Source: Desulfarculaceae bacterium (GTDB lineage: Bacteria; Desulfobacterota; Desulfarculia; Desulfarculales; Desulfarculaceae). From it: a stretch of DNA of 64,000 nucleotides. Location: positions 682,001 to 746,000 of the forward strand of contig JAHLKT010000001.1 in assembly GCA_020444545.1 (NCBI GenBank), read 5' to 3'. Below are positions 50,752 to 63,085 of the stretch, piece after piece; positions within the stretch are counted from its first letter, which is position 1, and the number at the start of each line of letters is the position of its first letter. A program made the position numbers and the translations under genes. The notes beneath the pieces were generated by a model that was not told the origin of the DNA, ran no database searches, and saw only the letters and a list, made by a program, of their open reading frames with translations.

Positions 50752-52140
50752 TTAGAAGCCGAGACTCTCTAAAAGCTTGTCCACCTTCTTCATGTCCGGC
50801 AGGGAAGAAGCCTCGCCGTCCAGGGGCAGCTCCAGGCCGCTCAGGGCCGCCTCCACCTCGGACTGGGCCTTTTGCTCGGCCCGGAAGGCGTTCATGTCCG
50901 GGTCGGCCTCGCGGGCGGTGAGCTTGGCCTTGAGCCCCACCAGCAGGGCCAGCAGGGACATGAGCGCCTCGCCCATGGGCCGCAGGTTGCCCGGCGCGCT
51001 CTTGTTGGCCGCGCCCGGCACGGCGGCGGCCATCTTGGCCAGGGAGGCCAGGGTCTTGCTCAGCTCCTCCAGGGAGGCGGCGGCCTGCTTCTCCGCGCCG
51101 GGCTCGGACTCGTCGAACAGGTCGGTGAGGTCGGAGAGCTCCTCGGGCAGGCCAGGGCCGGGCCGCCGGGCGGTCTGGGCCACGCGGTCCAGGAAGCCCT
51201 CCAGGCGCTCCAGGAGCAGGGGGTCCGGGGCCTCGCCGCCGGGGCCGAGCACCTCGGCCTCCAGGTAGAGGTTCTCGTCCGGAAAGAGCTGAGCCGCGTT
51301 GGCCTGCATCTTGGCCAAAATCTGCGAGAAGCGCGCGTTGGCCGTGCTCTGTTGCAGGGCGGCCAGCACCATGGGCAGCGGCAGGCGCACCAAACCGCCG
51401 GGGGGCGGCTCGGCCGGGGCGCTCTGGTTGAGCAGCTGCTCCACCGCGCGCTCGTCGAACTCGGTGGGGTCGTCCCACATGGTCTGGATGTGCTTGCGCA
51501 CCGTCTGGTTGATGCAATGGTCGTAGATGCCCTGGAACACGCTCTCCAGGCCGAAGCGGTAGCCCGCCGCCTGGTTGCTTTGCACCCGCGCGCGGGACAC
51601 CTCGCCCATGAGGCTGGCGGCGCCGTCGGCCAGGGCGCCCAGGGGGTTGGCCACCGGCTTGCCGTTGGTGATCACCTTGGCCAGCTTGCGGCGCTCGGCG
51701 GCGGCGGCGGCGCGGGCCTTTTCGGCCAGCTTCAGCTCGGCGGCCACGGCCTGGGCCTGCTCCAGGGCCTGGCCCATGTCCTGGCCCAGCTCGGCGGCGT
51801 CGGGGCCCTTGCCTCCGGGGGCGGCCAGCTTTTTCAGCGAGGCGGCCAGGCCGCGCGCCAGGTGGCCCAACTCGCGGTAGAGGTCGTGGCTCAGCTCGCC
51901 GTAATAATCCGTGGCCGGTGGGCCCAGCGCGGGGCGCTCGCCCGGGGGCAGCTCGCGCTGCTCCTTTTGGGCCGGCTTTTCCATGCCCGGCAGGGCGTGC
52001 TGCTCCCCGGCCGGGGGCAAGCGGCGCGCGCCTTGGTCCAGGGTGCTGACGCTGACCTGATACACCGCTTTTTCGGTGCGGATGGTCATCACCCCGCCGT
52101 CGAATTCCAGGATTATGTCCGGGCCGTTTTTCTCGCTCAC
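50752..52140 (-). CDS. Large helical protein of unknown function, coupled to queH
   Basis: The 462-residue product starts at GTG after GGGGAGAAAACAATC, overlapping the queH stop (GTGA). An N-terminal beta segment (ILEFDGGVMTIRTEKAVYQV) is followed by a Pro-rich linker and long helical, Ala/Glu/Leu-rich stretches (LEQAQAVAAELKLAEKARAA, EAALSGLELPLDGEASSL). There is no signal peptide or membrane helix. I do not recognise a family. It lies before the phage region but its coupling and terminator place it in the queH unit. Confidence 0.75.
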   Translation of the reverse strand: MSEKNGPDIILEFDGGVMTIRTEKAVYQVSVSTLDQGARRLPPAGEQHALPGMEKPAQKEQRELPPGERPALGPPATDYYGELSHDLYRELGHLARGLAASLKKLAAPGGKGPDAAELGQDMGQALEQAQAVAAELKLAEKARAAAAAERRKLAKVITNGKPVANPLGALADGAASLMGEVSRARVQSNQAAGYRFGLESVFQGIYDHCINQTVRKHIQTMWDDPTEFDERAVEQLLNQSAPAEPPPGGLVRLPLPMVLAALQQSTANARFSQILAKMQANAAQLFPDENLYLEAEVLGPGGEAPDPLLLERLEGFLDRVAQTARRPGPGLPEELSDLTDLFDESEPGAEKQAAASLEELSKTLASLAKMAAAVPGAANKSAPGNLRPMGEALMSLLALLVGLKAKLTAREADPDMNAFRAEQKAQSEVEAALSGLELPLDGEASSLPDMKKVDKLLESLGF

Positions 52141-52697
52141 GATTGTTTTCTCCCCGTCGGACCAGCGGGGCTCCCCAAAAAGCGGTCCCGCTCCGAGAAG
52201 ATGCATCCGCAGTACTGCTGGCGGTACATCCCAGCCGCCTTGGAGCGTTCTATACCTTCTTGCCAGAAAGGCCGCCAGTCGCGGTAGAGGAATTCCACCC
52301 CCCGCCGCTTGCCGGCCGCCGTGCCCAACTCCTTGATGAGCCGGTGCTTCTGCCGTTTGGAGTATAACAGAGTGCTGCTAAAGGCATCAAACCCGCCCCG
52401 CTTGGCCACCGCCGCCGCCCGCTCCAGGCGCTGGGCCAGGCAGGGGGCGCAGCGCTCGCTCTCGCGCCAGGCCACATTTCGCAGCCAGGATTCGGGGTCG
52501 TACTCGTCCTGCACGATGAGAGGCAACTCTTCCCCGGCCGCCCAGGACTCCAGGGTCTGAAGGCGACGCTGGTTCTCGGTGTAGGGCTGGATGTTGGGGT
52601 TGTAGAACAGCGCGCGCAGCTCATGCCCCTCGTGGCGCAGGTCGTGAACCGGCATGATGGCGCAAGGCCCGCAGCATATATGCAGAAGTATTCGCAT
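52137..52697 (-). CDS. queH: Epoxyqueuosine reductase QueH
   Basis: The 186-residue protein begins MRILLHICCGPCAIMPVHDL with the CCGPC motif, followed by FYNPNIQPYTENQRRL, a RCAPCLAQRLERAA pair and the terminal YCGCIFSERDRF. These four Cys groups bind the 4Fe-4S cluster and metal in QueH (formerly DUF208), which reduces epoxyqueuosine to queuosine in tRNA without cobalamin. It is cytosolic. It is coupled to a downstream unknown gene. Confidence 0.92.
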   Translation of the reverse strand: MRILLHICCGPCAIMPVHDLRHEGHELRALFYNPNIQPYTENQRRLQTLESWAAGEELPLIVQDEYDPESWLRNVAWRESERCAPCLAQRLERAAAVAKRGGFDAFSSTLLYSKRQKHRLIKELGTAAGKRRGVEFLYRDWRPFWQEGIERSKAAGMYRQQYCGCIFSERDRFLGSPAGPTGRKQS

Positions 52698-52729: not shown

Positions 52730-53362
52730 TCAAGCGGTGGCGGACATCCCCGCCGCCCGCTCCAGCTCCAAGACCAGGATATGGCCCAGCGCGGCCAGGC
52801 ACTCCAGGTCCAGGAAGTTGGGCGCGGTGATGTCGTAGAGCATCTTGGCCTCGGCCGGGAACTCCTCGTCCGCGTCGTAGAAGCGAAGCTCCAGGGGCAG
52901 CTTGGGCAGGGCCGGGAAGCGCCAGGCCCCGTCCGAGGCGCTGCTGGTGGGCAGGGCCTCGCCGCCCAGCTCGGCGGCGGCGGCGCTCAGCTGCGCCAGC
53001 TTGCCGGCAAAGGCCCCGGCCAGGCGAACATCCACCAGCTGGCTCAGGGTGCGGGCGAAGTCGGCCCCGCCGGGCAGCTCGCGGTAGGGCACGAAGCTCC
53101 CGGCCGGCTCGCCGCTGCCCCCGTGGATCAGAAGCCAGGCCAGCACGATGCGCTGGGACACGGTGGAGTTGCCGCCGTCGGCCGCGCGCACCCCCTGCGG
53201 GCCCACCAGGTACTCCCGGCCCAGGAGCGTAACGGCCCACTCGGACCCGCGCCGCTCCAGGCCCAGGCTGGCCCCGGCCGGGGCCAGGTCCATCTGGGCC
53301 AGGCGCTCGGTCAGGCCGAGGTAGACCTTTTCATAGGCGTCGGGCTTGTCGGAATCGAACAT
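52730..53362 (-). CDS. DUF3786 family protein
   Basis: The 210-residue protein starts MFDSDKPDAYEKVYLGLTER three bases after the upstream stop. It shows the DUF3786 pattern: LLGREYLVGPQGVR, QRIVLAWLLIHGGSGEPAG with FVPYRELPGGADFARTL, and a C-terminal LPLELRFYDADEEFPAEAKM. The family occurs mainly in anaerobes, often beside corrinoid or one-carbon genes, with no defined function. Here it pairs with a degenerate KdsC-like HAD protein. Confidence 0.85.
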   Translation of the reverse strand: MFDSDKPDAYEKVYLGLTERLAQMDLAPAGASLGLERRGSEWAVTLLGREYLVGPQGVRAADGGNSTVSQRIVLAWLLIHGGSGEPAGSFVPYRELPGGADFARTLSQLVDVRLAGAFAGKLAQLSAAAAELGGEALPTSSASDGAWRFPALPKLPLELRFYDADEEFPAEAKMLYDITAPNFLDLECLAALGHILVLELERAAGMSATA

Positions 53363-53364
53363 GC

Positions 53365-53931
53365 TCAGATTTCCTCGGGCACGTAATCGGCCAGCAGGCG
53401 GTCCACCAGCTCGCGCACCGCGCCCCGTCCCGCCGGGGCCTCGGTTACGATGTGGCAGACCCCTTGCACCCAGGCCGAGGCCTCGGGCGGGCACACCGCC
53501 AGCCCGGCCAGGCCCAGGGCGGGCAGGTCGTCCATGTCCCGCCCCATATAGGCCGCCTGACCGGCCTGCATCTCGTTCTCCCAGATCACCTGCTTGAACA
53601 AAACGTCCTTGTCCCCGCCGGTGGTGCGCAAGAGCGCGCCCAAGCGCTCGGCCAACACCTCGGCCACGGCCAGGCCGGGCCGGGCCAGGATGACCAGCTG
53701 GCGCCCGGCGGCCACCCAGGCTTCCAGGCCCAGGATGTCGGCCCGGAACAGCTCCACGCTCTCGGAGCCGTCGGGGTGCAGGGTGGTCAGCCCGTCGCTG
53801 AGCGCGCCCTCCAGCTCCACCAGGAGCATCTTGGCCTCGGCGATGCACTGCTCCAAGGGCCGCTCCTCCTGGGGGACATGGGGCTTGGTCGCCGAGGGCA
53901 AGCTGATTTTGATGCTGTCGCTGTCGTCCAT
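53365..53931 (-). CDS. KdsC-like HAD-fold protein with missing nucleophile
   Basis: The 188-residue product resembles KdsC-type phosphatases: MLLVELEGALSDGLTTLHPD near residue 35, the Lys-containing GGDKDVLFKQVIW, motif IV in AYMGRDMDDLPALGLAG and the end TEAPAGRGAVRELVDRLL. Canonical motif I is DVDGVLTDG, with two catalytic Asp. Here it reads ELEGALSDG, and the motif II Ser/Thr also appears lost (LVILARPG). It is therefore probably not a normal phosphatase. It is in an operon with the DUF3786 gene. Confidence 0.82.
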   Translation of the reverse strand: MDDSDSIKISLPSATKPHVPQEERPLEQCIAEAKMLLVELEGALSDGLTTLHPDGSESVELFRADILGLEAWVAAGRQLVILARPGLAVAEVLAERLGALLRTTGGDKDVLFKQVIWENEMQAGQAAYMGRDMDDLPALGLAGLAVCPPEASAWVQGVCHIVTEAPAGRGAVRELVDRLLADYVPEEI

Positions 53932-53958: not shown

Positions 53959-53987
53959 AAAAAGGGGCGGGCCGGGCGCGCGGCCCG
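53959..53987 (-). terminator. Terminator at the end of the phage-derived operon
   Basis: On the - strand, CGGGCCG-N6-CGGCCCG (arms 53968-53974 and 53981-53987) is followed by CCCC and five T residues. It sits about 60 bp after the tail tube stop. Confidence 0.75.
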
Positions 53988-54047
53988 ACCCGGCTAAAAT
54001 AACCCGCTTGGCGGCGGGGGCGAAAGACCTTTTTTCCCCTGGCCTAC

Positions 54048-55082
54048 CTAGGACAGCAGGGCCGTGGCCCGGGTGTTGATCAGGTCGATGGCCAGGGGCG
54101 CGGCGATGCCGCTCATGCCCGCCGCCTCGGTGGGCGGGGCCAAGAGGTCCAGGCTCACCGGATGGGCGATCTTGCCTGCCCGGCCCACCGCGCTCTCGGC
54201 GTTGGTGATCACCAGATGGGGCATGATCAGGCTAAGGCCGTAGTTCACCCCGGACTCGATCTCCGGGCCAATGAAGTCGATGCGCATCTTCTTGCGGGTG
54301 TCACTGCCCAGGTCGCTCAGATAGGTGTCGCTGGTGTAGGTGGGGAACTCCAGGCTCAGGCTGAGGCTGGGGAAAGCGGCGCACACCGGCTCGGCGATCC
54401 TGTCGCCGCCCCCGGCCAGGTGGTCGCCGGCCAGATTGCGCCGGAAGCGCAGGGAGAAGCGGGCCGGGTGCACCGCGTCGCCGCTGTCCAGGGCCCCGCC
54501 GTCCGCGTCGTTGATCCAAAAACTCGCCTGCTTGAACAGCACCCGGTTGCCCGGGGCGGGCGCGCTCAGGCCGGTGAGGCTGGCGTTGGTGTTCACCCCG
54601 CTGGAGGTGTTGATGCTCAGGCCGTCGCACATGAGCGGGAAGCTCACGCTGAGAGGCTGGCCCGCCGCGCCCTCGATGGAAAAGCCGTCCACCTTGGCCG
54701 AGGCGAACTCGTGCACCGAGAAGCCCTTGTAGATGGCCAGGGTGCCGAAAAGGCCGTCGCTGTCCCCGGCCAGGCGCAGCTGGTGCAGCTGGCCGGTGGA
54801 GCCCTGCAAGGCGGGGGCCTCCGCGCCGCCCATGGCCATGGCCAAAAGCACCCCCAGCCCGGAGTAGCGCAGATAGGCCGACAGGTCGCCGCCGCAGGTG
54901 ACGAGCCCCTGGTCGCTGGCCGTGTGGAAGCTCTGGCCAGCGCTGTCGTCGGGCAGGTGCTCGATGGACTGGGTCACCGATTCGCTGGTGATAAGAAGGG
55001 CGTCGCCCGAGGCGCAGGCCACCGGGGTGCCCCAGGTCTCGGCCTGGGCAAAGGCCGCCTTGATTTCCTTGCCGCTGCTCAT
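54048..55082 (-). CDS. Phage major tail tube protein
   Basis: The 344-residue protein starts after AGGAGAGAGAAC. MSSGKEIKAAFAQAETWGTP is the typical start of the long form of phage tail tube proteins (tail_tube_2-like), followed by repeated beta-rich stretches (YKGFSVHEFASAKVDGFSIE and LSLEFPTYTSDTYLSDLG). It would polymerise into the tail tube of a long-tailed particle. It is the last gene of the cluster; a terminator follows, and no tape measure or assembly chaperone gene is present. Confidence 0.8.
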   Translation of the reverse strand: MSSGKEIKAAFAQAETWGTPVACASGDALLITSESVTQSIEHLPDDSAGQSFHTASDQGLVTCGGDLSAYLRYSGLGVLLAMAMGGAEAPALQGSTGQLHQLRLAGDSDGLFGTLAIYKGFSVHEFASAKVDGFSIEGAAGQPLSVSFPLMCDGLSINTSSGVNTNASLTGLSAPAPGNRVLFKQASFWINDADGGALDSGDAVHPARFSLRFRRNLAGDHLAGGGDRIAEPVCAAFPSLSLSLEFPTYTSDTYLSDLGSDTRKKMRIDFIGPEIESGVNYGLSLIMPHLVITNAESAVGRAGKIAHPVSLDLLAPPTEAAGMSGIAAPLAIDLINTRATALLS

Positions 55083-55111
55083 GTTCTCTCTCCTATGGCT
55101 TGATTAGAGGA

Positions 55112-55540
55112 TCAAAGGGTGTTCAGGGGCGACTCGTAGGCCACGGTCAGCTCCAGGTCGAAGATGCCCATGGGGTCGGCCGCGCCGCCCTCGTAGACTT
55201 CCAAATTGCCGCAGGTGGTGCGCTCCCAGTGAGGGTTCAGGCCCGGATCGCCCAGGGCCATGAGCACGCTCTCGGCCAGGGCGTCCAGGCCGGAGAAGTC
55301 GCCCCCGGCCGCCTTGGCGTAGCCCCACACGTGCAGCACCAGCTTGCGCTCCGCGGTGCGGTCGGTGCTCTCCAGGGTCTCCACCCGCTCGTTGAACAGG
55401 GTCAAGGCGGGCAGGTCGTTCATTTGCTCGGCCAGGTGAATGCCCCGGAGCACCGTGGCCGCCGCCTGGGGCATGCCGTGGCTGGGCCCCATGGCCGCCA
55501 GGCAGGCCAGCAGATCGCTGATGATGGTCGCGCGGGTCAT
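55112..55540 (-). CDS. Phage tail terminator-like protein
   Basis: The 142-residue product starts at an ATG overlapping the stop of the gp10-like gene. Its size, position and pattern (MTRATIISDLLACLAAMGPS, RKLVLHVWGYAKAAGGDFSG, LEVYEGGAADPMGIFDLELT) fit a tail terminator or neck protein that caps the tail tube. The family is inferred mainly from position. Confidence 0.65.
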   Translation of the reverse strand: MTRATIISDLLACLAAMGPSHGMPQAAATVLRGIHLAEQMNDLPALTLFNERVETLESTDRTAERKLVLHVWGYAKAAGGDFSGLDALAESVLMALGDPGLNPHWERTTCGNLEVYEGGAADPMGIFDLELTVAYESPLNTL

Positions 55541-55980
55541 GGCATCGCCTCCGCCAGATTGCTTTGCAAAAACGCGGGCAGGGCCTCCAGGGCGGCGTCG
55601 CGGCCGGGGCGCAGATAGGGCCGCGCGGGCAGCACCACCCGCTTCACCTGCACCCATTGCCCCTGGATGCGGAACTTGAGGTACTTGGCTTTTTGGGCGG
55701 TGATCACCGCGCCGTACTCCTGGGCCCCGGCATAGGGCGCGTCGGCGTAGAGCTCGCCGATCCAGGTGTCGCCGCTCTGGTAGACCCGCCCGCCCAGGCT
55801 GCGCAGCAAGCGGCCGCTACGCACCTGGGGCCCGCCCCCGCCAGGGCCCATGGCCGTCCGCGCCGCGTCCAGGCCCGCCTCCAGCGCCTGCTCCAGGGAC
55901 TGGCGGATCACCTCGGGCAAACGGCGGGTGAGCTGCTCCAGGGGGTCAATGGCCGGGGGGATCACCGTGAGCGAGATCAC
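55537..55980 (-). CDS. HK97 gp10-like head-tail protein
   Basis: The 147-residue protein has the gp10 pattern: MISLTVIPPAIDPLEQLTRR, RSGRLLRSLGGRVYQSGDTW and DAPYAGAQEYGAVITAQKAK, ending with LPARPYLRPGRDAALEAL. It connects the head stopper to the tail. Starts overlap the neighbours by 4 bp on both sides. Confidence 0.78.
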   Translation of the reverse strand: MISLTVIPPAIDPLEQLTRRLPEVIRQSLEQALEAGLDAARTAMGPGGGGPQVRSGRLLRSLGGRVYQSGDTWIGELYADAPYAGAQEYGAVITAQKAKYLKFRIQGQWVQVKRVVLPARPYLRPGRDAALEALPAFLQSNLAEAMP

Positions 55981-56585
55981 AGCAGGCTCCGGTTGCGGTA
56001 GCGGTCCAAGACCGCCTTGACCTGGGGCATGAGCGCCCCGGCGTGGTAGCTCACCGAGCCGTCGGCCAGGGTGCGGGCGCTCATGCCCAGGCGGCCGTGA
56101 CCCGCCCCGGACTCCTGGAAGCGGGTGGCCGCCTGCTCGATGGCCGCCTGGGCCAGGTCCGGGGGCGTGGTGGCGAAACCGGCGCGGTAAATGAGCCCCA
56201 CGTTGTGCGCCCCCCGGGGGAACACCCGGTCCAACAGGGTGAGCACCCCGGCCCCGGCGTCCAAGACCCAGCCCACGCCCCCGCTTGCCGGGGCGATGGC
56301 CCGCCCCTCCAAAACCAGGCTGCTCAGGCTGATCACCGGGTACTGCGGCAATAGGAGTTCGGCGTAGCCCGCGCCGGACAAGAGCGCGTTGTCCGGGTCA
56401 AAGGCCGCGTCCTCGCTTTGGTAGGAGTAGTCGCGGGCTCTGAGCTTGCGGCCGGTGTAGGCGTTGAACTGGGCGCTCACCGCCTCGATGAGCCGCTCCA
56501 GGAGGCCGTCGTGCTCCGTGGCGGCGATGGCCAAGTACTCCTTGAGCTCGGCCAGGGTGGTCAGGGCGTCGTTGGATAGGGCCAT
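55977..56585 (-). CDS. Phage gp6-like head-tail connector (adaptor)
   Basis: The 202-residue protein has the gp6-like features LAELKEYLAIAATEHDGLLE, LIEAVSAQFNAYTGRKLRAR, and the C-terminal DLAQAAIEQAATRFQESGAG. It forms a ring below the portal. It starts about 60 bp after the capsid gene, with a hairpin terminator-like sequence between. Confidence 0.8.
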   Translation of the reverse strand: MALSNDALTTLAELKEYLAIAATEHDGLLERLIEAVSAQFNAYTGRKLRARDYSYQSEDAAFDPDNALLSGAGYAELLLPQYPVISLSSLVLEGRAIAPASGGVGWVLDAGAGVLTLLDRVFPRGAHNVGLIYRAGFATTPPDLAQAAIEQAATRFQESGAGHGRLGMSARTLADGSVSYHAGALMPQVKAVLDRYRNRSLL

Positions 56586-56602
56586 GGTTGGGCTCTCTTT
56601 TT

Positions 56603-56633
56603 AAAAGGCCCCGGAGGCGCGGGGCCTCCGGGG
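56603..56633 (-). terminator. Hairpin with T run between the capsid and connector genes
   Basis: CCCCGGAGGC-N5-GCCTCCGGGG (arms 56609-56618 and 56624-56633) is followed on the - strand by a TTTT run. It probably attenuates transcription past the capsid gene. Confidence 0.7.
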
Positions 56634-56644
56634 GGTTGGGGTCC

Positions 56645-57871
56645 TTAGGCGGTGGGCACCGCGCTGAGCATGGCGAAACGCTTCTCCTCGCTCAGGTTGA
56701 AGCCCATGCGCACCTCGGCCAGGAAGGCGGTCTGGTTGTAGGAGAAGTAGGGCTCGGCCCAGGGGTTGGTCTTGACCACCAAACCCTGGCGCAGGCCCAC
56801 CAGGGCGCTGCCCGCGAAGTCGCCCGCGAACAGGCGGGTCTCGTCGGTGCCGTCGCCCAGATTGGTGAGCACGTTGGGGTCGCGCACGAAAGGCTCGCCC
56901 CACACCAGGGGACGCTCGGCCCCCTCGGCCCGGGGCTGGCCCGGCTGGCGGTAGATGTAGTCGCCGTTGTCGTCCTTGAGGGTCATCAAGACCTTCTCGG
57001 CCTTGGGATGGCCGATCACCGGCACGCTGGCCGCGTGGGGCGCGTTCTCGTACACCGCGAAGATGAGCCCGGCCAGGTCGTCGAAGCCGAAGGTGCCGCT
57101 CACGCTCAGGGCGTTGGTGCTTATCTTGCCGGCCAGGCCGGTGATGGGGTCGGTGGCCGAGCCCGCGCCCCGCAGGCAGGCCACGTCAAAGGCCTGGCCG
57201 ATGGTCTCGGCGAAGAGGTTCCTGAGCACCGCATCCACCCCGGGGTCCGAGTCGTCCAACAGCTGGTTGCTCACCACCACCTTGACCGCCAAGACATGGG
57301 CGCTCAGGGCCAGCTGGCCGAAGGTGGCGTCACTGCGCGGCTTCTCGCCATGGGCCGCGCCGTCGCCCAGGCCGTAGGTCTCGCTGTCCACGGCCTCGGG
57401 CACCCAGTAGGCGCTCAGGCCGCTGGTGATGGTGGGGAAGGTGATCTGGTGGCTGTTCATGGGCACCGTGCGGCACAGGCCCTTCACCGCGCTGAAATTG
57501 TTTACCAGGTTCAAGACCTCGCCGGACTCCTCGCCGGGCACCAGGTAGCCCCCGGCGGTGGTGGCCCCTTCGCGCAGGTCCTTGGCCCGGGGCGCCTCCA
57601 CCTGCTTGAGGGCCGCGCCCCCGGCGCTCACCAGCTCCCCGGTCTCCAGGTGCTTGGGCGACTGGCCCATGCCCAGGCGTCGCACGTCGCCCAGGTATTT
57701 GCTCAGGCCCACGCCGGGCAGCCCGGAGGGCCCGCCGAGGCTCACCCGGCCCGGCTCCACCGCGGCCAGCACCTTTTCCAGGCGCTCGTCGATCAGCCCC
57801 TTGAGGCTGGCCTCGTCCAGGGACAGGCCGGTGGCCTGCTCCAACAGCTCGATGATCTTGGTCTGCTTCAT
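56645..57871 (-). CDS. Phage major capsid protein, HK97 fold
   Basis: The 408-residue protein has a short N-terminal helical delta-like domain and the HK97 core (LREGATTAGGYLVPGEESGE, FSAVKGLCRTVPMNSHQITF, DVACLRGAGSATDPITGL, AGSALVGLRQGLVVKTNPWA and ending FSYNQTAFLAEVRMGFNLSE). It forms the icosahedral shell. The upstream protease fits HK97-type maturation. A hairpin terminator lies just after it. Confidence 0.92.
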   Translation of the reverse strand: MKQTKIIELLEQATGLSLDEASLKGLIDERLEKVLAAVEPGRVSLGGPSGLPGVGLSKYLGDVRRLGMGQSPKHLETGELVSAGGAALKQVEAPRAKDLREGATTAGGYLVPGEESGEVLNLVNNFSAVKGLCRTVPMNSHQITFPTITSGLSAYWVPEAVDSETYGLGDGAAHGEKPRSDATFGQLALSAHVLAVKVVVSNQLLDDSDPGVDAVLRNLFAETIGQAFDVACLRGAGSATDPITGLAGKISTNALSVSGTFGFDDLAGLIFAVYENAPHAASVPVIGHPKAEKVLMTLKDDNGDYIYRQPGQPRAEGAERPLVWGEPFVRDPNVLTNLGDGTDETRLFAGDFAGSALVGLRQGLVVKTNPWAEPYFSYNQTAFLAEVRMGFNLSEEKRFAMLSAVPTA

Positions 57872-57901
57872 GGTTTCATGGCTCCTTAATAGGTTGGTTG
57901 C

Positions 57902-58525
57902 TTAGTCCACCAGGCCCAGGTGATAGCGGATGCGTTTCACCACCGCCTGGCCCAGGGCGGCCGAGACCAATGCCCGGGCCGCTCCGGGGTTAAGCGCCGT
58001 TGGTTGCGGCGCGCCCGGCGTGGCCGGGGAGGGGGTGGAGCGGCCCTTGATTCCCAGGGCCACCAGGGCCTCGGGGTTGGCCGGCAGGGTCACGCAGGAG
58101 ATCTCGTAGAGCTCCTGCCGAAGGTAGCGGGTTCCGGTCAGGGCGCGGCCGTTCAGGCGGTGGGTGGCCACCTCGCTCTCCAGCGGCGCGAAGCCCACCG
58201 AGAAGGCGCGCAGATAGCCGCCTTTGTAAAGGCGGTAGATGGTGTCGGCAAAGGCGTACTCCTCGGCAGTGGGGAACTGGGCCTTGAACAACAGCCGCCC
58301 GTTCTCCACCTTCACCGCCAGGGCGCGGGCCACGGGAGGCGAGGCGTAGTCATGGGCCCAGGGGATCACCGGATTCTTCAGAAAGTTGGCGAAGTCCCAG
58401 CCCGTGGGCTCCACCAGGTCGCCCTGGCGGTCCACCGTGGGGCTGGAGGCCACCGCCCAGAAGGTGCGCTTGTCCTCGTCGGCCCGGCTCACCTCGAAAT
58501 CCATCACCTTGTGCACCAGCTTCAT
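57902..58525 (-). CDS. HK97-family prohead protease
   Basis: The 207-residue product starts at the ATG overlapping the portal stop (ATGA). It has FWAVASSPTVDRQGDLVEP, PVIPWAHDYASPPVARAL (the His/Ser region) and YLRQELYEISCVTLPANPEA, typical of U35 proteases that cleave capsid delta domains during head maturation. The long C-terminal tail is Ala-rich. Confidence 0.88.
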   Translation of the reverse strand: MKLVHKVMDFEVSRADEDKRTFWAVASSPTVDRQGDLVEPTGWDFANFLKNPVIPWAHDYASPPVARALAVKVENGRLLFKAQFPTAEEYAFADTIYRLYKGGYLRAFSVGFAPLESEVATHRLNGRALTGTRYLRQELYEISCVTLPANPEALVALGIKGRSTPSPATPGAPQPTALNPGAARALVSAALGQAVVKRIRYHLGLVD

Positions 58526-59967
58526 GACTCGTCTCCTTGGCGGGGGGAACTGAGCTCCCGCATGGTTTGCTTGATGTCGAGCCCCCGGGTTAGGCAGCTC
58601 CGTAGTTGCTTTTGCAGGCGGCCCCGTTGCTGGGGGGGCAGAGCCGGGGGCAGCATCCCGTCGATCAGCTCCGGCTTTCGCTCCAACTCCCGTGCCACCC
58701 GCCCGGCGGACCACCCGGCGAAGCGCGCCTCCAAACGAGGCCAGGCCTCATGCAGGCCCACGGCCAGCTCCGGCTCCAGGCCCATGGCTACGGGGCCTTC
58801 CGGAGAGGCGGGCAGCAGAGGCTGGTGCCCCCAGGCCACCGGCTCGCGGCCCTGGGCAGCCCGAAGCTCGTTGATGGTGATCACCCCCCGGTCCAGCTGG
58901 GCCATGGCCTCCTTGTGGGCCTGGGCCCGGTCGCTGGGCACCGGGTTATCGTGGCGGAGCGAAAGCCCCTGGCCGTAGCGGGGCAGCAGGAAGGCGTTCA
59001 TCACGTCCTCCCACAGCTCCAAGCGGGGCCGGATGCACTCGGCGTTGAAGGTCACCTCGATGCCCTGGGCGTTGGCCCGGTTCACGTCCTTGACCAGGCC
59101 CAGCTTGCCCGCCGGCACCCCGTAGGCGGCCAGGATGTTGTCCTGGGTCCAGCCCGCCAGGTCCATGAACTCGAAGTCCTTGGCTGAGTAGGCCAGGGGC
59201 GTGGCCTTGAGCCCGCCGTCCAGCACCGTGGGTTCGAAGACGTGGGACAACCCCTGGTGCTTCTGCCGCCAGCGGGTGAGCACCCGGCGGGCCTCGTCCT
59301 CGGTAAGGCGCTGGTCGGTGCTTAGCACCACCTCGGGCCGGGCCGAGTTGCGGAAAAAGTTGCGCTGATAGATGCGCACCGCCAGGTCGATGTCAAAGGC
59401 GTGGGCCATGGCCTCGATGGGGCTGGCCCCGTAGACCAGGCTGGTGGGGCTGGGGTGGCGGAAATAGAGCACCTGGCTGGGCGCGTACTCCACCCTCTGG
59501 CCCTGGCTGTCGGCGAACACGAAGCGCTCTATGGGCTGCCTCGTGTCGCTGCCCGAGGCGATCTCGATGAGGTCGCCGGGGCTCAGGGGCCACAGCTCCG
59601 CCGGCCGCCCCAGGGCGTTGTTGAGCACCAGCACGAAGGCCATGCCCGTGAGCTCCAGGTGCAGGCAGAGCGTGTAGCGCAGCTGCCTGCCGGTGAGCAG
59701 GGGGTTGGGCCGGGCCAACAGCGAGAGCACCGGATGGGCGCTCACCTCCGGGCCTTGGTCGGCGAAGAGCCTCAGCGGCACCCCGGCCATGCGCCGGGCG
59801 ATGGCGCTCACCGCCGCGAAGACCCAGCCCTGGTAGGCGGCCAGTTGGCGGGAGCGGCCCCGGGTGCTGCTGCCGCCCAAAAAGGGCGGCGGGCCGGGGG
59901 GCGCGGGGGGCAGCTCCAGGCGCTTGCCGAGGGAGGACGGAAATAACTTGCTCAGCCAGGCTTTCAT
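58522..59967 (-). CDS. Phage portal protein, HK97 family
   Basis: The 481-residue protein (ATG at 59967 after GAGGTGAAC) has the portal pattern: AAYQGWVFAAVSAIARRMAG, HPVLSLLARPNPLLTGRQLR and VLYFRHPSPTSLVYGASPIE, then LDGGLKATPLAYSAKDFEFM and PAGKLGLVKDVNRANAQG. It forms the dodecameric DNA entry ring. It follows terL with a 7-bp gap and overlaps the protease gene. Confidence 0.92.
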   Translation of the reverse strand: MKAWLSKLFPSSLGKRLELPPAPPGPPPFLGGSSTRGRSRQLAAYQGWVFAAVSAIARRMAGVPLRLFADQGPEVSAHPVLSLLARPNPLLTGRQLRYTLCLHLELTGMAFVLVLNNALGRPAELWPLSPGDLIEIASGSDTRQPIERFVFADSQGQRVEYAPSQVLYFRHPSPTSLVYGASPIEAMAHAFDIDLAVRIYQRNFFRNSARPEVVLSTDQRLTEDEARRVLTRWRQKHQGLSHVFEPTVLDGGLKATPLAYSAKDFEFMDLAGWTQDNILAAYGVPAGKLGLVKDVNRANAQGIEVTFNAECIRPRLELWEDVMNAFLLPRYGQGLSLRHDNPVPSDRAQAHKEAMAQLDRGVITINELRAAQGREPVAWGHQPLLPASPEGPVAMGLEPELAVGLHEAWPRLEARFAGWSAGRVARELERKPELIDGMLPPALPPQQRGRLQKQLRSCLTRGLDIKQTMRELSSPRQGDES

Positions 59968-59974
59968 GTTCACC

Positions 59975-61450
59975 TCACCAGACGTTGGGCCCCGTGGAGC
60001 GCAGCAGGCTCACCGCGCCCTCCAGGGCGTCGGGTCCGTCGTCGTGCACCTTGGGGGTGGGAAAATTGAGAAGCTGCTCGATCAGCTCGCCCTGGTCGGA
60101 GTGCTCTGGCCGGAAACGCACCAGGCCCCGCTCCACCAGGGGGCTCAGGCCGGCCAGGCGCAGCTCCTTGGACAGGCGCTGGGTCACGCCCTTGAGCGGC
60201 AGCACCACCCCGGCCTCGCAGGCGGCGCGGGAGAACTCGTCCAATAGCAGGCGCTGGAACAGGTTGTCCTCCACCCCGAAGACCAGGTATTGGTGGCGCT
60301 GCTGGCGGCGCAGCACCGCGCGCACCAGCTGATCCAGGGAGCAGCGCCGGATAAAGGCGTCCAGCACGTAGAACACCTGGGCGGCCCGGTCCAGGCCCAC
60401 GGTGATCACCGCCTTGAAGTCGCCCCGTTCGCCGGTGGCCAGGGAGGGGTCCAGGAACCCGGCCACGGCCAGCTCCTTACCCCCCAGCTCGGCGGGATGG
60501 TAGGAGCGCAGCCACTCCTCCTGGAACATGCCGTTGTCGTCCAGGGGGTTGTTCTGCTTCTCGGTATTAAAGGCCCGGGTGCCCATGAGCCGCTTTTGCT
60601 GGAGCAGCTCCTTGGCCGGGTGACGCTCCTCCCATAGGCTGCGCCCCGCGTCGTCCAGGGCGCGGTAGACCCGCCGGGTGTAGCGCTTCCAGGGCTCCTC
60701 GGGCGAGCCCACCAGGGTGGCCAGGGCGCTGCGCCGGGCCAGGATGGTGCCGATGATGAACAGGCTGCCCGTGGGGTCGATGGCCGGGTACACCGCCGCG
60801 CTCACCCACTCCAAACAGGCCCGCACCAGGCGCGGGTTCTTCACGTTCTTGTCGTTTTCCAGATCGTCCAGGATCACCAGATCGGGGCGGAAGCGGCCGT
60901 GCTTCACCCCGCGCAAACGCTGGCCGCTGCCCCGGGCCAGGATGCGGGTGCGCCCGCCCACCACGAAGTCGCCCGCCGGGCCCTCGGGGCGCCGGGCCGG
61001 GCCGAAGTCCTCCTCCAGGCGGGGGTTGAGCTCCAGCTCCAGGCGCAGGTAGTTGGTCAGGTCGTTGGCCAGATCGGCAGTGTCGCTGCCCAGGACCACG
61101 AAGCGCCGCCGCCCGAACAACACCTGGTGCAGCACGTAGCCGAAGCTCACCAGGGTGGTCTTGGCAAAACCGCGCGGCGCGGCCACGGCCACCGGCACCA
61201 CCGCGCTGCCCCGCTGTTCCAACAGGCCGATCAGCTCGCGGTGGAAAGGCGCGAAGGCGCAGTTGAAGTAATGGGGCAGATAGGTGGCACAAAAGTACAG
61301 GGGGTCTTCCGCCGCCCGCGCCCGGCGCTCGGAGCGGGCCGGGTCGCCCGGTCCGAAGGCCCCGGCCTCGGCGGCCAGACGCCCCACCACCTGGGCGGCC
61401 CGCTGCCTAAAGCGGGCGCTGGTCATCTTGCGGGCGGCCAGGGCGCTCAC
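59975..61450 (-). CDS. Phage terminase large subunit
   Basis: The 491-residue protein has the ATPase Walker A-like AAPRGFAKTTLVSFGYVLHQ, Walker B LVILDDLENDKN, and the nuclease half with GFLDPSLATGERGDFKAVIT and VHDDGPDALEGAVSLL carrying the metal-binding Asp residues. It packages DNA through the portal. It starts at GTG, overlapping the upstream gene by 4 bp. Confidence 0.93.
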   Translation of the reverse strand: MSALAARKMTSARFRQRAAQVVGRLAAEAGAFGPGDPARSERRARAAEDPLYFCATYLPHYFNCAFAPFHRELIGLLEQRGSAVVPVAVAAPRGFAKTTLVSFGYVLHQVLFGRRRFVVLGSDTADLANDLTNYLRLELELNPRLEEDFGPARRPEGPAGDFVVGGRTRILARGSGQRLRGVKHGRFRPDLVILDDLENDKNVKNPRLVRACLEWVSAAVYPAIDPTGSLFIIGTILARRSALATLVGSPEEPWKRYTRRVYRALDDAGRSLWEERHPAKELLQQKRLMGTRAFNTEKQNNPLDDNGMFQEEWLRSYHPAELGGKELAVAGFLDPSLATGERGDFKAVITVGLDRAAQVFYVLDAFIRRCSLDQLVRAVLRRQQRHQYLVFGVEDNLFQRLLLDEFSRAACEAGVVLPLKGVTQRLSKELRLAGLSPLVERGLVRFRPEHSDQGELIEQLLNFPTPKVHDDGPDALEGAVSLLRSTGPNVW

Positions 61451-61896
61451 GCCGCGCCCTCCCCTTCCAGGCGCGCGAAGAACTTTTGCAGCAGCCGCCC
61501 CAGCCAGGCCAAACGCTCGGGGTCCTCCGGGCCCTCGGCGGCCAGGGCGGCCAGACGCTCGCCCACCTCCACCGCCGCGGCCTTGAGGTCGTAGCCCTCG
61601 CGCTCCAGGCGGGCGCAGGCGGCCGCGATCTTGGCCAGCTGGTCGGCCTGGGCCGCCTCCAGCTCGCCCGTGGCCACCAGATCCTCCACCTTTTTGGCCA
61701 TCAGCTCGCGCAGGGCCGCCGCCGCCCCCCGGGGGTCGGCCAGCCAGGCCTTGCGCATGGCCGCCCAGTTGCCCTCGGCCGCCCAGCGGATGAGCCGCTC
61801 GGGCTCCAGGCCCAGCTCGGCGGCCACCGCGCCCAGCTCCTGCCCGGCCAGATAGCGGGCCCGGGCGATGGCCTTGCTGTCCTCGCCGCCGGCCAT
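61447..61896 (-). CDS. Phage terminase small subunit-like protein
   Basis: The 149-residue protein has an N-terminal helix-turn-helix-like segment (AIARARYLAGQELGAVAAEL, GLEPERLIRWAAEGNW) as in small terminase subunits of the DUF1804 kind, followed by helices with an AARALEREG-like pattern. It recognises the packaging start and regulates TerL. It starts at TGATG and overlaps terL by 4 bp. Confidence 0.78.
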   Translation of the reverse strand: MAGGEDSKAIARARYLAGQELGAVAAELGLEPERLIRWAAEGNWAAMRKAWLADPRGAAAALRELMAKKVEDLVATGELEAAQADQLAKIAAACARLEREGYDLKAAAVEVGERLAALAAEGPEDPERLAWLGRLLQKFFARLEGEGAA

Positions 61897-62135
61897 CAGC
61901 AGGCCTCCATCTCCCGAAGCTCGCGGCTCAGCGCGCGGTACTCGCGCACCGCGGCCACCAGCTCCTCCATGGCCTGCTCGGCGTGCTCGATGCGCATGGC
62001 CTCCACCCCGTCCAGGTTGTAGAGGTAGTAGCTGATGTCCTTGCCCAGGCGATCGATCTTTATCTCAAGCTGCCTAAGGCGCTCGCGCTTTTCGGCGCGC
62101 AGGCCCCGGGCGATCAGGCGGGAAGTCTTGTCCAT
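61896..62135 (-). CDS. Small helical phage-cluster protein (79 aa)
   Basis: The ATG at 62135 follows GAGGTGAGAGCC. The product (MDKTSRLIARGLRAEKRERL) is almost all charged helix, possibly a coiled coil, and its stop overlaps the TerS start. No family is recognised; small genes of this type are common just before terminase genes. Confidence 0.68.
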   Translation of the reverse strand: MDKTSRLIARGLRAEKRERLRQLEIKIDRLGKDISYYLYNLDGVEAMRIEHAEQAMEELVAAVREYRALSRELREMEAC

Positions 62136-62140
62136 GGCTC

Positions 62141-62383
62141 TCACCTCAACAGGGAATGAACGACCTGGAACAGCAGCCAGAGCACGAACAGGCCCCCGGT
62201 GTAGGCGGCCAGGCGGGTCTCCAGGCGGTCCAGGCGCTGGTCCAGGGCGTCCACCCTGCCGCCGGACCGCTCCAGGGCGGCGGCGGTCTCGCCGTTCACC
62301 CGGCGCTGCTCGGCCAACGACATCTTGATCACCGTGTCCAGCCGCCGCAGCTGGCCCCGCAGGTTCTCCAGGGCCACTTTCAT
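62141..62383 (-). CDS. Coiled-coil plus membrane helix protein (XhlA/DUF2730-like)
   Basis: The product of about 80 residues has a coiled coil (LERSGGRVDALDQRLDRLET) and a C-terminal membrane segment (YTGGLFVLWLLFQVVHSLL). This is like XhlA/DUF2730 proteins in phages. The start is uncertain: ATG 62383 sits directly against a GAGGAG site and GTG 62377 is an alternative. Confidence 0.62.
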   Translation of the reverse strand: MKVALENLRGQLRRLDTVIKMSLAEQRRVNGETAAALERSGGRVDALDQRLDRLETRLAAYTGGLFVLWLLFQVVHSLLR

Positions 62384-62403
62384 CTCCTCCTCGCCCAAGC
62401 GGG

Positions 62404-62574
62404 CTAGTCCGTGTTCACGCGCAGGATGCCGGCGCGCAGGAAGATGGCGGCCAAGCCGGTGAAGGCGGTCTGGGCCGCTTCCATCAGGCCGGCCTCGCCG
62501 CTCAGGTAGGCCCCGGCGGCGGTGGCCAGGGCGGCCACCCCGGTCCAGAAGGTCTTGGTCTGTAAAAGGCTCAT
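62404..62574 (-). CDS. Small membrane protein, holin-like (56 aa)
   Basis: The ATG follows GAGGAGGGCCC. Two short hydrophobic segments (TFWTGVAALATAAGAYLSG and AQTAFTGLAAIFLRAGIL) are like small phage holins. No endolysin gene is near. Confidence 0.68.
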   Translation of the reverse strand: MSLLQTKTFWTGVAALATAAGAYLSGEAGLMEAAQTAFTGLAAIFLRAGILRVNTD

Positions 62575-62767
62575 GGGCCCTCCTCTCATGCGGGCCCGCT
62601 CCACGCGGGCCGTCAGCTTGGGCATGAGCCTAGGCTCCCCGCGCGGGGGGGCCCAGCAAGGGGGCGCACAAAAACGCCTTCCCGAGTTGGCGCGCGGCGG
62701 CGCTTCCTCGGGTGGTCTCCGGGTTGTGGTGTAAGGGGGGAGCGGAACGGGAAAGGCGGAAAGAGAG

Positions 62768-63085
62768 CTAGTTGTCCTCAACCCGATGGGCCGGGCGCAG
62801 GATGTGGCGCACGTGGCGGGAGCTCAGGCCCCAGCGCCGGGCCAGGGCGCGGGTGTTGGCCCCGTCGAACTCGGCCCGGATCATCCGGTTGCGCAGCTCG
62901 ATGAGGGCCCGGTCCAGCTTGGGGAAGTACACGCTGTTGCCCGCGAAGACCTGGGCCAGTTGCAGGGTGGGCTCCAGGCCGATCACCCCCACGATCTCTT
63001 GATAGACCTCGGGCAGCTGCTCTGCCTCCACCTGGCGCATCCAGCCGGGCACCAGCCCCTGGCGGGTGAAAAGATCCTGGGCCAT
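62768..63085 (-). CDS. Mor/Mu middle-operon-type transcription activator-like protein
   Basis: The 105-residue protein has a Mor-like layout: LPEVYQEIVGVIGLEPTLQL, then the NSVYFPKLDRALIELRNRM strand-helix and a terminal helix-turn-helix (NTRALARRWGLSSRHVRHIL). Mor activates the Mu middle promoter. As the first gene of this cluster it could switch on the downstream structural genes. A 190-bp gap with a GGCCCGC hairpin (near 62587-62612) separates it from the next gene. Confidence 0.78.
   Translation of the reverse strand: MAQDLFTRQGLVPGWMRQVEAEQLPEVYQEIVGVIGLEPTLQLAQVFAGNSVYFPKLDRALIELRNRMIRAEFDGANTRALARRWGLSSRHVRHILRPAHRVEDN

Follow-up and report, generated by a model that had tools for sequence, protein, structure and literature searches.

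A putative pseudoenzyme of the KdsC fold, encoded beside a DUF3786 gene and confined, as far as searched, to one bacterial family

The window analyzed here, a stretch of 64,000 nucleotides from a Desulfarculaceae genome (contig JAHLKT010000001.1, positions 682,001 to 746,000), carries on its minus strand a gene for a 188-aa protein with an ATG start (53365..53931), which has the HAD/KdsC fold without the catalytic residues and is designated pseudo-KdsC (pKdsC) below. A first-pass annotation had singled out this ORF for its altered KdsC-like motifs, and the ORF and its motif changes were confirmed as a real observation. The gene for a 210-aa DUF3786 protein (52730..53362, minus strand; PF12654, E 1.3e-41) starts 2 nt past the pKdsC stop codon, and is followed by genes for a QueH-type epoxyqueuosine reductase (52137..52697, minus strand; PF02677, E 2.9e-59) and a CheZ-like protein (50752..52206, minus strand; 484 aa as listed). 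Since the CheZ-like ORF overlaps that of QueH, its true start probably lies further in. Upstream of pKdsC, a terminator-like hairpin (53968..53992, minus strand; 10 pairs, 9 of them GC, then CCCCTTTTTC) separates it from the tail-tube gene of a phage gene block with conserved order (54048-63085, minus strand), which comprises terS, terL, portal, protease, capsid, adaptor, neck, tail terminator, and tail tube genes along with small ORFs, with no tail-length or baseplate gene among those recognized.

No Pfam family matched pKdsC at E 1 or better, and its best NCBIfam models were those of KdsC (PRK09484.1, E 9.4e-18; TIGR01670, E 1.3e-12), with scores under the family cut-offs (64.5 vs. 208 bits and 48 vs. 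106.95 bits, respectively; for comparison, TIGR01670 scores the true KdsC proteins of genomes G008 and G012 at 158.7 and 150.8 bits). Annotation by best hit alone might label pKdsC as KdsC, which would be misleading. In the PDB, a sequence search retrieved KdsC-type chains at E 6e-15 and weaker. An AlphaFold2 model built from 16 orthologues (mean pLDDT 89.4) gave a best Foldseek E-value of 1.1e-16 among the matches listed, and all 50 of these were KdsC-type chains and close kin, i.e., YrbI/KdsC, KDN-9-phosphate phosphatases, unnamed HAD hydrolases, and the C-terminal domain of CMP-sialic acid synthetase. Foldseek superposed the Moraxella KdsC (4um5) on the model at 1.3 Å over 156 columns, and the best Z-score obtained with VIA was 25.6 (4nav_A, rmsd 2.7, 166 residues). 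Taken together, these sequence and fold matches identify pKdsC as a KdsC-fold HAD protein.

Residues were compared in a single MAFFT alignment of 16 pKdsC and 26 KdsC sequences, the latter taken from the hits of the 60-genome search described below. As originally read, motif I is E39-L-E41-G rather than DxDG, and Glu-x-Glu is found in 16/16 orthologues, vs. D-x-D in all 26 aligned KdsC and in all 35 non-pKdsC loci from the class and phylum searches. With 18 of the 174 columns that have at most one gap being invariant, the chance of both motif I columns being so is ~0.01. A sequencing error or local mutation behind ELEG was rejected, as 16 orthologues agree, and a check for close orthologues with DxD returned 0/16, which leaves the original reading unrefuted. 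The motif II serine, initially reported as not visible, is indeed absent, with A83 at the corresponding position; across pKdsC this residue is Ala in 14/16 and Ser in 2/16, vs. Ser or Thr in 26/26 KdsC. Motif III is kept, as stated at first, through K108 (Lys in 15 orthologues, Arg in one). The same had been said of motif IV, and here the key residue contradicts it: where KdsC has GDDLxDLP, the window has the degenerate GRDMDDLP (residues 130-137; 53521..53544, minus strand), in which the first Asp of GDD, which we take to be a Mg2+ ligand of KdsC, is replaced by R131. This Asp is lost in 16/16 pKdsC, with R, C, A, W, S, or V in its place, and Arg occupies the position in 7/8 pKdsC of the window's genus. 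Remnants of the motif persist, i.e., the second Asp (D132) in 14/16 and D135 in 16/16. In KdsC, the C-terminal tail has a role in the active site; pKdsC lacks this tail and the conserved Trp in it. The most divergent orthologue (locus L017, genome G011) has lost seven residues downstream of motif I, along with the DG pair, yet keeps E-x-E.

The loss of the nucleophile proposed in the first-pass annotation is thus supported and is wider than claimed, spanning motif I (53809..53817, minus strand), motif II, the first motif IV Asp, and the tail. A HAD fold from which the catalytic residues are gone in all orthologues, in a gene that is nonetheless retained, is the pattern of a HAD pseudophosphatase, and judging from these residues HAD phosphatase chemistry has very probably been lost in pKdsC. 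Asp-to-Glu is a mild change, and residual or new chemistry is possible. An active enzyme of altered chemistry, with Glu39 as nucleophile or with Glu39 and Glu41 as general acid/base or metal ligands for an unknown substrate, would be consistent with the strict Glu at both positions and with the retention of the motif III Lys, D132, and D135 in most or all orthologues. Against it, the motif II Ser/Thr is gone in 14/16, and the first motif IV Asp and the tail are gone throughout, which, given the chemistry of HAD enzymes, makes HAD-type metal binding unlikely; we regard such an enzyme as decidedly improbable.

Of the 60 genomes searched (the window's own and relatives), 20 belong to the family, and pKdsC was detected in 16 of them, including 8/8 of the genus, the carriers outside the genus being G009-G011, G013-G016, and G019. 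Four genomes of the same family gave no pKdsC: G008 (97% complete) and G012 (92%) lack the gene, and it was not found in G017 and G018 (70-71% complete). A profile of the 16 sequences, run against 63 genomes of the class, scored pKdsC at 215-286 bits and the next match at 121.6; against 395 genomes of the phylum (an even draw from a larger group, with at most 8 candidates scored per genome), nine pKdsC scored 237-279 bits and the next match 121.9. A scan of genome contigs with short exact peptide patterns, which miss distant relatives, returned 3 loci. In a tree of 66 rows (the 16 pKdsC, the 26 KdsC, and 24 of the 35 other loci), a single branch, supported at 100/99 and recovered in all of 200 bootstrap trees (100%), sets the pKdsC apart from the rest. 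Its root being arbitrary, the tree bears on the unity of the clade rather than on its sister group or on an origin from the family's own KdsC. Ten of the 11 loci left out repeat genomes already present, L090 (G036) being the one that does not, and the KdsC of G003, G007, G016, and G019 are in neither the 42-sequence alignment nor the tree. The pKdsC clade is hence confined, as far as searched within the phylum, to a single bacterial family.

Besides pKdsC, the window's own genome encodes an ordinary KdsC (DIDGVLTDG) on a different contig, and an ordinary KdsC accompanies pKdsC in 14/16 genomes, with D-x-D in all 14. G019 has a third KdsC-type gene (L132, contig C88; DVDGTLTDG, motif II VTQE) besides its pKdsC and KdsC. 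This co-occurrence, the shared fold, and a hairpin region free of deletions in 15/16 pKdsC could be read as signs of a regulator of Kdo synthesis, which would form mixed oligomers with true KdsC or compete for Kdo-8-phosphate and thereby tune the supply of LPS precursor. Such a role seems unlikely, however, since pKdsC occurs where no true KdsC was found in G005 (94% complete) and G014 (71%), no second KdsC-type match lies in 15 pKdsC loci (L047-L061, 5.6 to 19 kb), the G011 protein is shortened after motif I as described above, and the G45, R64, and tail Trp that are fixed in KdsC (L002 numbering) are not conserved in pKdsC.

The pattern of constraint differs from that of KdsC. The 18 columns invariant among pKdsC include E39, E41, R84, and W154, at positions occupied in KdsC by D, D, G, and E, respectively. 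R84 is present in 16/16 pKdsC vs. Gly in 26/26 KdsC (a comparison that holds only if this stretch is rightly aligned without gaps), W154 in 16/16 vs. Glu in 24/26, and W72 in 15/16 vs. Leu in 25/26. Also invariant are P17 and P20, in a part of the N-terminal tail modeled with low confidence, and the E23 that follows. Within 10 genomes, pKdsC evolved faster than KdsC in 45/45 pairs (mean p-distance 0.537 vs. 0.316). Its NG86 dN/dS, a rough estimate in such GC-rich genes, was 0.23-0.46 among six members of the genus (G000, G001, and G004-G007) and rose to 0.53-0.87 when G002 or G003 was in the pair. The latter values, together with rates above those of KdsC, could also reflect weak constraint, and a slowly decaying duplicate without a function of its own, kept through translational coupling to DUF3786, would account for this fast evolution and for the absence of pKdsC from G008 and G012. 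Yet all 16 frames are intact across five genera, some of the invariant residues differ from those of KdsC, and dN/dS stays below 0.5 in close pairs. We consider such a duplicate quite unlikely and a remnant pseudogene likewise unlikely; as judged from sequence conservation, a new and partly relaxed constraint appears to fit better than a decaying pseudogene.

The phage genes upstream raise the question of whether pKdsC is a moron of the neighboring prophage. In its favor, pKdsC lies directly downstream of the head and tail-tube genes in 7/8 genus genomes. The eighth, G003, has no phage gene in the 4.4 kb examined upstream, pKdsC of other genera has no phage neighbor, and the phage block of G009 and G010 is located away from pKdsC. 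The terminator-like hairpin stands between the two; terminator-like sites numbered 2 vs. 0.4 expected, but the full 136-nt stretch with the hairpin showed no stronger folding than its shuffled versions (z −0.84). Nor did pKdsC match PHROGs at E 0.01, and a scan of viral contigs with short exact peptide patterns, by which distant relatives are missed, found no relative. A phage gene was rejected on the grounds of the phage-free loci elsewhere, the intervening hairpin, and the missing PHROGs match, the moron explanation being exceedingly improbable, and we conclude that the pKdsC operon is separate from the prophage-like head genes. The block was noted in the window and in loci L126, L127, L047, L051, and L052. 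Among 20 genomes searched, a close terL occurs in 8/8 of the genus (78-87% in the other seven) and in G009, G010, and G011 (72-74%), and was not found in G008; there is one close copy per genome, with a second in G005 at 50%. The block resembles a domesticated prophage or gene-transfer-agent core that has been inherited vertically.

Downstream, the tight operon with DUF3786 noted at the outset proved to be a real linkage. DUF3786 is the next gene in 16/16 pKdsC loci, separated by at most 14 nt in 14 (2 nt in the window; start codons assigned by rule) and by 112 nt in G014 and 260 nt in G002. After it come QueH in 14/16 and the CheZ-like gene in 13/16 pKdsC genomes; in G003 and G015, DUF3786 alone stands beside pKdsC, and QueH and the CheZ-like gene were not found (~1.1 kb covered in G003). 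The converse fails in G008, which has a DUF3786 gene of the same subfamily, together with QueH and the CheZ-like gene, but no pKdsC. Upstream at this G008 locus are ORFs that by eye resemble lipoyl synthase and dihydrolipoamide dehydrogenase. In 14 genomes, tree distances of pKdsC correlated at 0.86 with those of QueH and 0.75 with those of DUF3786 (partial correlations 0.70 and 0.38). The QueH correlation being the higher, co-evolution does not single out DUF3786, and DUF3786 as an obligatory partner was set aside, as the distance correlation did not favor it over the others. By gene order only, pKdsC looks like a DUF3786 accessory.

The DUF3786 protein was modeled by AlphaFold with a mean pLDDT of 93.5. 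Foldseek matched nothing to this model within an E-value limit of 0.001 (the best hit reached 0.14), the best VIA Z-score, 7.2 (2pww, rmsd 3.7, 96 residues), is inside the tool's chance range, and we assign no fold to the protein. Aerolysin chains, matched by sequence in the PDB at E 0.14 and weaker, were taken as chance. The nearest DUF3786 genes of two other families (G031, G036, G053) had no KdsC-type neighbor in the stretches examined. In class family f4, DUF3786 lies ~3 kb from kdsC in four loci fetched (L118-L121), with an order in L118 and L121 that, with names given by eye, is presumably DUF3786, CooC-like ATPase, HD-type hydrolase, kdsA, kdsC, uvrC. This link was dropped as a lead because the f4 DUF3786 is only 30-36% identical to that of the window. 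A DUF3786 paralogue in L124 (G000, contig C7; 3725-4528) has a Cys-rich N-terminal NCRDCGAPTC, 4Fe-4S-like by eye, and adjoins another DUF3786 gene. In the literature found, DUF3786 was named once, in a table.

The CheZ-like gene shows a change of its own. In G008 and G009, the related proteins hit PF04344 (8.9e-21 and 1.2e-17, respectively), and all 7 full copies outside the genus contain FQDLSGQ, a motif that bears on CheZ phosphatase activity. The window's copy is without it, as it is gone in 5/5 full genus copies, while the LLESLGF/LLEKLGF end stays; G006 has no CheZ-like copy at the pKdsC locus. On this motif, the genus CheZ-like protein may be a second dead phosphatase. One could tentatively imagine the operon as a regulatory complex of retired phosphatases, in which pKdsC and the CheZ-like protein would be non-catalytic binding subunits around the DUF3786 protein and the Glu-x-Glu pocket of pKdsC would sense a ligand, though we hold this to be a doubtful extension.

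Our best reading is that pKdsC is a putative lineage-specific pseudoenzyme of the KdsC fold, for which a non-catalytic role is the best inference. Two parts of the first-pass interpretation carry over, i.e., the loss of the nucleophile, seen in 16 orthologues, and the DUF3786 linkage (16/16), while the claim that motif IV is kept does not. We lean, by a modest degree, towards a pseudophosphatase put to new use as a subunit for binding or regulation, with DUF3786 as its most likely partner. A KdsC-type gene, extra to the ordinary kdsC, would have lost its phosphatase machinery and stayed as a non-catalytic protein: nucleophile and acid Asp would both have become Glu, the motif II Ser/Thr would have become Ala, and the first motif IV Asp and C-terminal tail would have been lost. 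The protein would be made together with the DUF3786 protein and bind it through the remodeled former active site (E39, E41, R84, K108, W154) and/or the N-terminal P-x-x-P-x-x-E tail. Its former pocket might still sense a metabolite or peptide that carries a phosphate group. We conjecture that the Arg found in the genus at the metal-ligand position could replace the metal beside the Glu pair; the DUF3786 partnership and the ligand are what we infer from gene order. The clade amounts to a natural experiment, with live and dead KdsC relatives in the same genomes, and gives a handle on the uncharacterized DUF3786. In the open literature searched, no dead KdsC was found in print; the papers found on HAD pseudophosphatases and pseudoenzymes include one on Entamoeba phosphatases and, judged by title, none on KdsC.

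Among known systems, pKdsC most resembles KdsC/YrbI, the HAD-type 3-deoxy-D-manno-octulosonate 8-phosphate phosphatase, in fold, length, the G-x-x-[ST]-D-G loop, the motif III Lys, the second motif IV Asp, and the GxGAVRE segment. It departs from it by E-x-E in place of D-x-D, a motif II Ser/Thr absent in 14/16, the missing first motif IV Asp and C-terminal tail, the N-terminal P-x-x-P-x-x-E, and scores far under the family cut-offs. The C-terminal domain of murine CMP-sialic acid synthetase (3ewi) has the same fold (TM-score (target) 0.86, Z 23.0), but it is a fused domain of an animal enzyme and is likened to pKdsC by fold alone. Phenylphosphate carboxylase offers a case in which a KdsC-type protein has become part of another enzyme, its delta subunit (TIGR02726), which pKdsC matches weakly at E 5.9e-9. 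According to one report, this 18 kDa subunit of the hydratase/phosphatase family is needed for carboxylation and on its own hydrolyzes phenylphosphate very slowly (PMC6114531). pKdsC is unlike TIGR02726 in its score (36.3 bits vs. a cut-off of 281.95) and in having no carboxylase gene among its annotated neighbors. Fungal Tim50, as described in another report, has a HAD fold with an imperfect DxD, shows no phosphatase activity, and acts as a binding receptor (PMC8346121). Eukaryotic and related to CTD phosphatases, Tim50 is cited with no direct relationship claimed, purely as a precedent for how pKdsC may work.
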